DNA of 64,000 nucleotides from assembly GCF_002787055.1 (NCBI RefSeq), contig NZ_CP024808.1, positions 894,328 through 958,327 of the forward strand, in the 5' to 3' direction. A model generated the notes under the pieces. That model saw only the letters and a program-made list of their open reading frames with translations, was not told where the DNA came from and did not search any database. This document shows positions 19,122 through 21,624 of this stretch, piece by piece (the first letter of the stretch is position 1; each line of letters opens with the position of its first letter). The DNA is from Candidatus Nitrosotenuis aquarius (GTDB taxonomy: Archaea > Thermoproteota > Nitrososphaeria > Nitrososphaerales > Nitrosopumilaceae). The position numbers and the translations under genes were made by a program.

Positions 19122-19211
19122 ATGCAAGGCAAGGGCTGGTTCATTGGAATGGCAATAACTGTAGCCGTAGTTTGGTGGGGCGTAAACTACCTATTTCCGT
19201 GGGTTCACTAG
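19122..19211 (+). CDS. Putative 29-residue single-span membrane peptide
   Basis: A short frame starting at ATG encodes 29 residues: MQGKGW, then a hydrophobic run FIGMAITVAVVWWGVNYLF, then PWVH. It could span the membrane once, with four Trp at the interfaces. A TTTATTAT element is centred about 26 nt upstream of the ATG, the spacing seen at other leaderless genes here. The stop shares the palindromic CTAG with the stop of convergent corA. Length makes chance possible; no family is recognised. Confidence 0.5.
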   Translation: MQGKGWFIGMAITVAVVWWGVNYLFPWVH

Positions 19212-20230
19212 TCAGCAAGCCATTTCTTCTTGTAAAAATAGGCATACAATAGTCCAGATGGAATCATAGATAAAATCAGCATTATAATTAGTGCCGTATA
19301 TTCCCCAAGAAACGTCCAGCTTCCTGTCTGGATTCCGCCTGGCAGGTTTATGTTCATGCCATAGATGGCGCCAACTACGGTCGGCGGAATTGTTAGCGTG
19401 AATATTATGGTAAGTGTTGCAAGTATTTTGTTTGATTTTTCAGTAGAGAGTAGAAAGTCAGTGTCCTTGTAGATCTCCATTGTTTCTTTTGCCTCGTCCA
19501 GTGTTTCTGCCACTTTGTCAATGTGATCAATTACGTCATCAAAATGAATCACCAGATCATCATCGGGATTTGAGAAGCGTTGCGTGTTCTTTGATGTTTC
19601 CAGTACGGTTTTTCGCAGCGGATGGACTATACGACGCAGTATTGTGATTTCACGCCTCAATAATGAAATCTTTTTTGGTGTGGACTTGTTTTCGTCAAAG
19701 ACATCGTCTTCTATCTCATCCAGATTCTCCACAATTCTGCGCAATGTATGCAGTAGTTCGTCTACTAGAGCATCAACTATTTTGTATAGCAGAAATCCAG
19801 ACGACTTGCCAAGCAGTTCATTTCTGTACTTGGAATCGTCTTTGCAGCGACTTACCATTTCCACTAGCGGTTTGAGCTCTCCATAGTGTATGGTAACCAG
19901 ATAATCTTTTCCGATGAATACTGCAAGCTGGTTAAATCGCGACATGCCGCGCTTTAGTGCAAGTGGTGGAAAATGCAGGATGATAAAGGAATGATCGTCA
20001 TAGTTGTCTATTTTTGCAAGCTGGATCTTTGAGATAGAGTCATCCAGGTTTAAGGAATTAAAATTGTACATTTGCCCCAGCTTTTCAATTTCTGCGCGGT
20101 CTGGGTTTTGAATGTCAGTCCAAGTAAAGCCATTTCCCTGGATGGTTTCCAGCTTGCTTTGGATTATCTCAGCAGGCTGAGGATGTCTTCGCAAATGTGG
20201 CAACCTGGAGATGAATAGTTCTTTTTTCAA
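19208..20230 (-). CDS. corA: CorA-family magnesium/cobalt transporter
   Basis: A 340-residue channel-like divalent cation transporter. The long cytoplasmic helical domain includes LLHTLRRIVENLDEIED near 165-181. The two C-terminal membrane helices are near 277-297 and 309-330, with the selectivity motif YGMN (near 298-301) between them and a basic tail KKKW. The start is TTG; a TTTTAATTTA element on the minus strand is centred about 27 nt upstream. Divergent from the structured RNA region and tyw1. Which of Mg2+, Co2+ or Ni2+ it moves cannot be read. Confidence 0.92.
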   Translation of the reverse strand: MKKELFISRLPHLRRHPQPAEIIQSKLETIQGNGFTWTDIQNPDRAEIEKLGQMYNFNSLNLDDSISKIQLAKIDNYDDHSFIILHFPPLALKRGMSRFNQLAVFIGKDYLVTIHYGELKPLVEMVSRCKDDSKYRNELLGKSSGFLLYKIVDALVDELLHTLRRIVENLDEIEDDVFDENKSTPKKISLLRREITILRRIVHPLRKTVLETSKNTQRFSNPDDDLVIHFDDVIDHIDKVAETLDEAKETMEIYKDTDFLLSTEKSNKILATLTIIFTLTIPPTVVGAIYGMNINLPGGIQTGSWTFLGEYTALIIMLILSMIPSGLLYAYFYKKKWLAD

Positions 20231-20262: not shown

Positions 20263-20321
20263 TTTTCATTATGATATCGCAAACAAATTTTGCACAAACT
20301 GCATAATTTTTGTGAGATAAT

Positions 20322-20426
20322 GTGCGGGCGTGGCCCCAAGCGTAGAACATGAGAGAATACCTCTCTGTACCATAACGCCTTAGCGTTCATGGTTCACTAT
20401 ATCGTTCTACTGAGCCACGCGCGGAC
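20322..20426. ncRNA. Multi-branched structured RNA element of unknown family
   Basis: A 105-nt segment folds as a branched structure with fully complementary helices: P1 GCGTGGC/GCCACGC (20328-20334 with 20414-20420), P2 GTAGAAC/GTTCTAC (20342-20348 with 20404-20410), hairpin P3 GAGAG/CTCTC (20351-20355 with 20361-20365) and hairpin P4 ACCAT-AACGC/GCGTT-ATGGT (20369-20378 with 20383-20393, one bulge). Outer flanks add four further pairs around two G-G mismatches. All pairs are Watson-Crick, so the strand is undecided. On plus, T-runs follow (20451-20480). On minus, a good TATA-like CCTATAAAG lies upstream. It is not a canonical tRNA, SRP or RNase P RNA. It could be an independent RNA or a mobile-element hairpin. 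Confidence 0.62.
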
Positions 20427-20601
20427 TATTTGTTGGATTTTACATCCTTCCGCATTATTCTTTATAGGAATTTTTTGTATTTAACATTTTGTATGAATTT
20501 TTATAATAAAGATCTGAACATAATGAAATAATTTTTTACATTAAAACCAGGCTCAACTCCAAAAATGAAAAATTAAGTAAAACCAAAGCACAAAAAACAT
20601 C
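20427..20601. other. Non-coding AT-rich spacer before tyw1
   Basis: No supported gene is visible in these 175 bases. They contain a small hairpin GGAT-TTTAC-ATCC (20437-20449), several T-runs that could end a plus-strand RNA, and an AATTAAGTAAA element about 30 nt before the tyw1 ATG that probably acts as its promoter. Confidence 0.5.
20460..20468 (-). promoter_or_regulatory. TATA-like box facing the structured RNA
   Basis: Minus-strand CCTATAAAG would place a transcription start near 20437, about 11 nt before the outer helix of the RNA element. It is one of two reasons to consider the minus strand as the transcribed one, the other being that the plus strand lacks an equally good box. Confidence 0.35.
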
Positions 20602-21624
20602 ATGAGTTGCTCAGGCGAGTTTGTAGAAAATGATATCATTCAGATCAAGTCATCCATCCAGCAACAGCTCAAAAAGGCCAAGTATGGAGTATCAGATCAT
20701 TCCACTGTAGAACTGTGTCACTGGACAAAAAAATCCTTCAAAGGAGAAGAAAGCTGCTACAAGCACAAGTTCTATGGCATATCAACACACCAGTGCATGG
20801 AGTTTTCTCCTGCAGGAATGTACTGCGAGAACAGGTGCGTCTATTGCTGGCGCCCAATGGAGTTTTATGACTCACTTGAGATGAGCCCGCAAAACGTGGC
20901 AGAGCCAAAAGACATCATAACCAAGCTAATGGCAGAACGAGAAAATCTGATCATGGGCCATTATGGTGATCCAAAATCAATCCACAAAAAACTGGACGAG
21001 TCATTATTGCCGGCGCATTACGCAATATCGCTTTCTGGCGAGCCAACAATGTACCCCAAGCTTCCAGAACTGATAAAATACCTCAAGACACTGCCTGCAA
21101 CAAAGTCAATATTTCTTGTAACAAACGGCCAAGAACCACAGATGCTCAGGCGCCTCCAAGACGAGGATGCACTGCCAACACAGATCTACCTATCCACAAA
21201 CGCCGCAGACTGTGATTCATTTATGAGAATAAACAAGCCAAGATATTCGGATTCATGGGAGAGATGGAACCAGTCTCTAGAATTATTGCAAAACATGGAC
21301 ACACGAACGGTCCTTCGAATGACCATGATCAGAAACCATAACGATTTTGAGGAAATGATTCCGGCGTTTGCAGACATGATAAGGCGCGCAAATGTGCACT
21401 TTATTGAGATAAAATCCTATATGCACATTGGCCGCTCCACAAACAGGCTTGCCCGCTCCGACATGCTGGAATTTGAGGAGGTCAGCTACTTTGCAGGCAA
21501 GCTGGCAGAAAAAAGCCAGATCTATTCAATAGTTGACGAAAGTATCGCATCAAGGATAGTATTGTTGCAGAACCAGCAAAGAAAGATCAGCCCCCTTATC
21601 TCCGCGTACGCACAAACCAGCTAG
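20602..21624 (+). CDS. taw1: 4-demethylwyosine synthase (TYW1/Taw1), radical SAM enzyme
   Basis: Builds the tricyclic base of wyosine derivatives at position 37 of tRNA-Phe from N1-methylguanosine and pyruvate. The 340-residue radical SAM protein has the cluster motif CENRCVYCW (near residues 74-82), an upstream Cys region CYKHKFYGISTHQC that can bind the second cluster, LSGEPTMYP near 143 and a C-terminal EIKSYMHIG near 272. ATG start with a promoter-like AT element upstream. The 3' end overlaps the convergent ITPase gene by 29 nt. Confidence 0.95.
   Translation: MSCSGEFVENDIIQIKSSIQQQLKKAKYGVSDHSTVELCHWTKKSFKGEESCYKHKFYGISTHQCMEFSPAGMYCENRCVYCWRPMEFYDSLEMSPQNVAEPKDIITKLMAERENLIMGHYGDPKSIHKKLDESLLPAHYAISLSGEPTMYPKLPELIKYLKTLPATKSIFLVTNGQEPQMLRRLQDEDALPTQIYLSTNAADCDSFMRINKPRYSDSWERWNQSLELLQNMDTRTVLRMTMIRNHNDFEEMIPAFADMIRRANVHFIEIKSYMHIGRSTNRLARSDMLEFEEVSYFAGKLAEKSQIYSIVDESIASRIVLLQNQQRKISPLISAYAQTS

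Follow-up and report, generated by a model that had tools for sequence, protein, structure and literature searches.

A structured RNA of the Nitrosopumilaceae with a nine-codon reading frame of fixed length, and its possible gating by translation

Between the genes corA and taw1 of Candidatus Nitrosotenuis aquarius there is a structured RNA gene that begins with a nine-codon open reading frame (ORF), one which is kept among relatives while the peptide that it would encode drifts. The explanation that we favor, and which we view as about evenly poised between right and wrong, is that of a stand-alone, structured small RNA of approximately 130 nt that is ‘gated’ by a ribosome, with that ribosome translating the nine codons and then terminating against P1, the first helix of the structured domain that follows. 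The element was noticed within a window of 64,000 nt (contig NZ_CP024808.1, positions 894,328 to 958,327), i.e., the whole stretch of DNA that was analyzed, and unprefixed positions given here are those of that window.

The RNA gene is on the minus strand, at about 20327 to 20458, as indicated by a conserved TATA-like box at its 5' end along with a T-rich tract after its 3' end, the latter seen in most homologues. An initial, sequence-only reading had assumed the plus strand, erroneously so given that conserved box and the conserved start codon with which the 5' end is supplied on the minus strand. A plus-strand RNA was considered and rejected: it would fold about equally well but lacks a conserved promoter, with the conserved TATA box and ORF both found instead on the minus strand. 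The same reading had placed the element at 20322 to 20426. The element is indeed there, but it is longer, extending from 20327 to 20458 plus a promoter that reaches to 20484, and DNA similarity spans about 20327 to 20536, which is past the right end as first given. As delimited by covariance matches (models R1 and R3) and by BLAST and covariance homologues, the core of the gene is 132 nt long and consists of a 5' mini-ORF containing a hairpin, P0, followed by a P1–P4 domain that forms a three-way junction. Both the ORF and this fifth hairpin had gone unseen. The neighbors, which are outside of the element, are corA (CorA Mg2+ transporter; 19208 to 20230, minus strand; PF01544, E 2.5e-55) and the divergent taw1 (radical SAM, wyosine; 20602 to 21624, plus strand; PF08608 and PF04055).

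The fold of the element is real rather than a product of chance. Taken alone, the interval 20322 to 20426 reaches -44.7 kcal/mol on the plus strand (z -4.75, with 0 of 200 shuffles as good) and -44.0 kcal/mol on the minus strand (z -3.83). The full minus-strand RNA, 20320 to 20458, reaches -52.5 kcal/mol (z -4.77, likewise with 0 of 200 shuffles as good). The four helices that were originally described are present, both strands of the interval fold far better than shuffled sequence, and the hairpins of 5 and 10 bp among them both exist, identified as P4 (GAGAG-CUCUC) and P3, respectively. On the minus strand, P1 pairs GCGUGGCUC (20412 to 20420) with GGGCCACGC (20328 to 20336) and P2 pairs GUAGAAC (20404 to 20410) with GUUCUAC (20342 to 20348). 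The P3 hairpin (20370 to 20392, minus strand) is variable in both sequence and length, and indeed P3 and the linkers vary widely among copies. P4 (GAGAG-GUAUU-CUCUC; 20351 to 20365, minus strand) is the most conserved hairpin in an alignment of 81 domains, reading GAGGNAAUCUC in most copies. The same architecture is obtained from single folds of distant members.

Covariation in relatives, a check that the initial reading had suggested, is strong. In a MAFFT alignment of 33 sequences, one which is not fitted to structure, 98.8% of cells are paired and seven pairs are changed on both sides, above 500 of 500 shuffles. With 96 diverse homologues, in an alignment that is fitted to the covariance model and which hence leans towards the structure of that model, 97.3% of pairing cells hold, 22 of 25 pairs have changes on both sides (0 of 500 shuffles), and the covariation score is 0.342, as against 0.174 for shuffles and no more than 0.081 with partners slid. 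For these same homologues, P1 consists of 9 pairs (98.6% of cells paired, 7 pairs changed on both sides), P2 of 7 pairs (96.8% of cells paired, all 7 changed on both sides), P3 of 4 core pairs (all 4 changed on both sides), and P4 of 5 pairs (4 changed on both sides).

The element had been ascribed to an unknown family, being neither RNase P RNA nor SRP RNA, and this holds up. Rfam 15 yields no family at gathering score for the element (within the window it finds only tRNAs, and the best sub-threshold E is 4.2), and both of those RNAs are located elsewhere in the genome. That is, the RNase P RNA model (RF00373) has no match in the window, with the genome's RNase P RNA at C1:655484-655761, and archaeal SRP RNA (RF01857) is not at the element but instead at C1:1109415-1109725. 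No C/D or H/ACA boxes stand out in the alignments, in which the 3' end of the RNA is provisional, nor is there an Rfam match. A transposon or viral hairpin was rejected as well: the locus is conserved across genera, and the covariance model has no match in retrieved viral contigs, with 21 such contigs drawn by a short pattern and 0 of these confirmed by the model. The transposon explanation raised at the outset thus is unsupported, there being a copy at a conserved locus across genera and a distribution that is confined to Nitrosopumilaceae. The mRNA-like domain of tmRNA is similar in form to what is seen here in one sense, as there too a structured RNA contains a frame, about ten codons long and variable in sequence, that ends beside a helix. 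The present RNA, however, has no tRNA-like domain, lacks the conserved CCA end, has its own start codon (ATG, GTG or TTG) at its 5' end, and has no Rfam match, and tmRNA was rejected on these grounds. Nor is tmRNA known from archaea.

The TATA-like box, TTAAATA (20478 to 20484, minus strand), is a block of conservation beyond the RNA, is conserved in nearly all homologues, and in 78 of 94 copies has its first base 29 nt upstream of the start codon. A minus-strand TATA signal near 20460 had been taken to point towards corA; this is indeed a promoter region, but the conserved box is at 20478 to 20484 and is the RNA's own. Given the usual archaeal TATA spacing, transcription would start at, or a few bases before, that start codon, a leaderless geometry. 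A look at promoter geometry among the protein genes of the window yielded few matches.

In the window's copy the ORF, ATGCGGAAGGATGTAAAATCCAACAAATAG (20426 to 20455, minus strand; MRKDVKSNK*), occupies the 5' end as ATG CGG AAG GAT GTA AAA TCC AAC AAA TAG. Among 96 distinct RNAs, which are related by descent such that the counts are of non-independent events, the ORF is of nine codons in 87, eight in 5, ten in 2, and is absent from 2. Exactly nine codons are expected in 0.5% of cases, based on composition shuffles, and in a subset at less than 85% identity nine codons are found in 52 of 60. Starts are ATG in 87, GTG in 5 and TTG in 2, with stops TAA in 62, TAG in 13 and TGA in 19, and the gap from stop to P1 is 3 to 5 nt in 92 of 96. 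Nor is the ORF a product of model bias towards ATG starts. A second covariance model, R2, covers the P1–P4 domain alone, keeps only 6 base pairs and holds zero ORF information, and the further loci that it recovers, where correctly placed, carry a frame of eight or nine codons (two that are incorrectly placed, L167 and L190, are at contig ends). In some copies the ORF may be dispensable, as 2 of the 96 are without it and two others are extended to ten codons, with their stop at P1. Rare copies that have lengthened or lost the nine-codon frame (L155, L156, L122 and L144) are possible natural experiments on the need for that frame.

These same data bear on whether the RNA might be purely structural, i.e., non-coding, with the start and stop triplets serving as untranslated RNA motifs. 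An unconserved peptide and a P0 that is kept as structure would both be in keeping with that. Three different starts and three different stops nevertheless replace one another at set positions, frame 0 alone is depleted of interior stops (found in 9 of 72, versus 48 of 72 and 29 of 72 in the other frames, with 45% expected), and the majority of ORF length variants, at 8 or 10 codons, keep the frame. We consider this explanation to be quite unlikely.

The features that are kept are the set length of the frame, the hairpin P0 within it, and its position next to P1. Across 34 close pairs we count 9 synonymous and 64 nonsynonymous changes versus 19.6 and 53.4 expected, and the peptide, as judged from these comparisons, therefore is not under purifying selection; 67 different peptides are encoded. 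P0 (GGAU-GUAAA-AUCC; 20435 to 20447, minus strand) is reflected in 30 divergent ORF interiors that fold lower than shuffles (combined p 3e-16), and its pairing alone could constrain part of the ORF. As the frame is conserved without conservation of the peptide, it is the act of translation, rather than the product, which seems to be under selection. Were the short peptide itself the product, e.g., a signal, toxin or cofactor precursor, with the remainder of the RNA a structured 3' untranslated region, then a constant length of 8 to 10 residues would make sense. Nonsynonymous changes if anything are in excess, however, with those 67 peptides all differing and the structured domain far better conserved than the peptide, and we view this possibility as decidedly improbable. 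A dual-function small RNA with a conserved functional peptide was rejected based on the same 9 synonymous and 64 nonsynonymous changes. That is, small RNAs of the SgrS/SgrT type similarly combine an ORF with a structured part, but here the peptide is without purifying selection.

Gating by translation would proceed as follows. Transcription directed by the RNA's own TATA box, starting with the start codon itself or a few bases ahead of it, would supply a bare 5' end, onto which a ribosome therefore could load in a leaderless manner. That ribosome would translate nine codons of arbitrary sequence, melting P0, and would meet the stop codon 3 to 5 nt ahead of P1. At the stop it would cover roughly the next 9 to 12 nt, i.e., about the first 6 to 8 nt of the P1 5' strand, and because most of that strand would be held by the ribosome, the P1 3' strand would be freed. 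This P1-opening step is derived entirely from general ribosome geometry. Translation would then be a ‘switch’ between a closed P1–P4 domain, with P1 formed, and an open one, and the domain would act on a partner, whether protein, ribosome or another RNA. More generally, this may be a new class of archaeal RNA, one in which an attached RNA domain is mechanically gated or timed by a ribosome that translates a leaderless frame whose length is fixed and whose sequence is arbitrary, with selection on translation rather than on product. To that broader claim we give slightly less than an even chance.

Alternatively, the leaderless mini-ORF could capture whole ribosomes which the structured domain then ‘parks’, i.e., for storage or hibernation, or as a global brake on translation. 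The evidence from ORF conservation applies equally to such a ribosome-occupying RNA. In addition, the near-invariant P4 segment, GAGGNAAUC (20351 to 20365, minus strand), may be read as resembling a Shine-Dalgarno sequence, though imperfectly so, with N often not U, and the segment is base-paired. Precedent exists in the ribosome-associated small RNAs of Haloferax volcanii (PMC12482152; PMC6104027), which, as likened by description, are archaeal, engage ribosomes and in several cases are without coding potential, but the accessible text of those papers does not describe a conserved ORF of fixed length. With P3 and the linkers varying as widely as they do among copies, we judge ribosome occupation to be unlikely.

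That the RNA stands alone, rather than serving an adjoining gene, is consistent with its genomic context. At the majority of loci a convergent gene lies downstream, and the RNA therefore is not the leader of any particular gene. One small gene of unknown function, for which no Pfam family was found, recurs as the convergent partner of the RNA, at 22 of 43 loci. This conserved convergent neighbor across genera (from L096 1638 onward, with orthologues, 22 loci) encodes a protein of about 143 residues that is probably membrane-anchored. Often a gene for an SDR reductase is upstream of the RNA, on the other strand, and other RNA copies are at varied places. At or one gene past the RNA's downstream side, there is a gene for a TFB-like transcription factor at some loci (among L068, L009, L061 and related ones) and a Snf7-like, possibly CdvB-type gene at others of that set.

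That the RNA is a leader or riboswitch acting in cis on corA, or on another downstream gene, is suggested by the window's copy, where corA is downstream and on the same strand. That arrangement, however, is found only with one Nitrosotenuis copy, copy A, with mostly a convergent gene elsewhere, and a promoter-like box for corA lies between the RNA and corA. The probability of such a leader we regard as verging on negligible. The sequence-only reading had leaned towards a stand-alone RNA rather than a corA leader, and in this it was right. Leader peptides and attenuators of the TnaC or MgtL type are similar in that translation of a short ORF can alter a downstream fold, but here there is no conserved gene downstream, on the same strand, that would be regulated in this way. 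The anatomy fits no known kind among those tested.

When 41 genomes were searched at the DNA level, the element turned up in that of the window and in 16 others of genus Nitrosotenuis, mostly as two copies each, and named records with the core pattern are of Nitrosotenuis and related Nitrosopumilales. The covariance model R1, built from 33 sequences, matches 175 of 200 Nitrosopumilaceae genomes, from 17 of 22 genera, at 1 to 6 copies each; a few Nitrosopumilaceae, including 0.8-Mb genomes of one genus, are without a convincing match. Outside of this family, no relative is seen at E ≤ 1e-4 among 398 genomes of the phylum (weak matches near E 0.3-1 were disregarded). From these searches the RNA is specific to Nitrosopumilaceae. 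Hosts include genomes matched to N. maritimus SCM1, C. symbiosum A and N. zosterae NM25, along with one which we take to be N. brevis CN25; in the first of these the RNA is placed at C1:22395-22527, 488157-488277 and 690168-690297. One Nitrosotenuis genome has a third, divergent copy at a different locus (L018; G013:C1:874650-874784), and many genomes have extra copies like it, with as many as six copies in G143. At L108 (G079:C184; 1501-1620 and 1810-1928) there is a tandem pair of copies, separated by about 190 nt, whose frames differ and are of nine and eight codons.

The Tan1 RNA of marine group II Euryarchaeota (PMC5069720) is, by its description, likewise an abundant, orphan structured RNA of marine archaea, but is from another phylum, is 229 nt long, and is presented, in the text accessible, with no mention of an ORF. 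Blainey 2011 refers, in the portion available, to one conserved noncoding RNA common to N. limnia and N. maritimus, which is mentioned without identification. No description of the RNA considered here was found in open publications, with an earlier sighting of the bare transcript possible in subscription papers. Its covariance alignments permit immediate annotation of the RNA as well as searches of transcriptomes for it.

The Nitrosopumilaceae, drivers of marine ammonia oxidation, rank with the most abundant archaea on Earth. To our knowledge, their small RNAs have hardly been explored. A nine-codon frame that is kept while its peptide drifts is evidence, of a rare kind, that translation itself is selected, and this RNA is as well a compact system with which to test leaderless initiation and termination in archaea.
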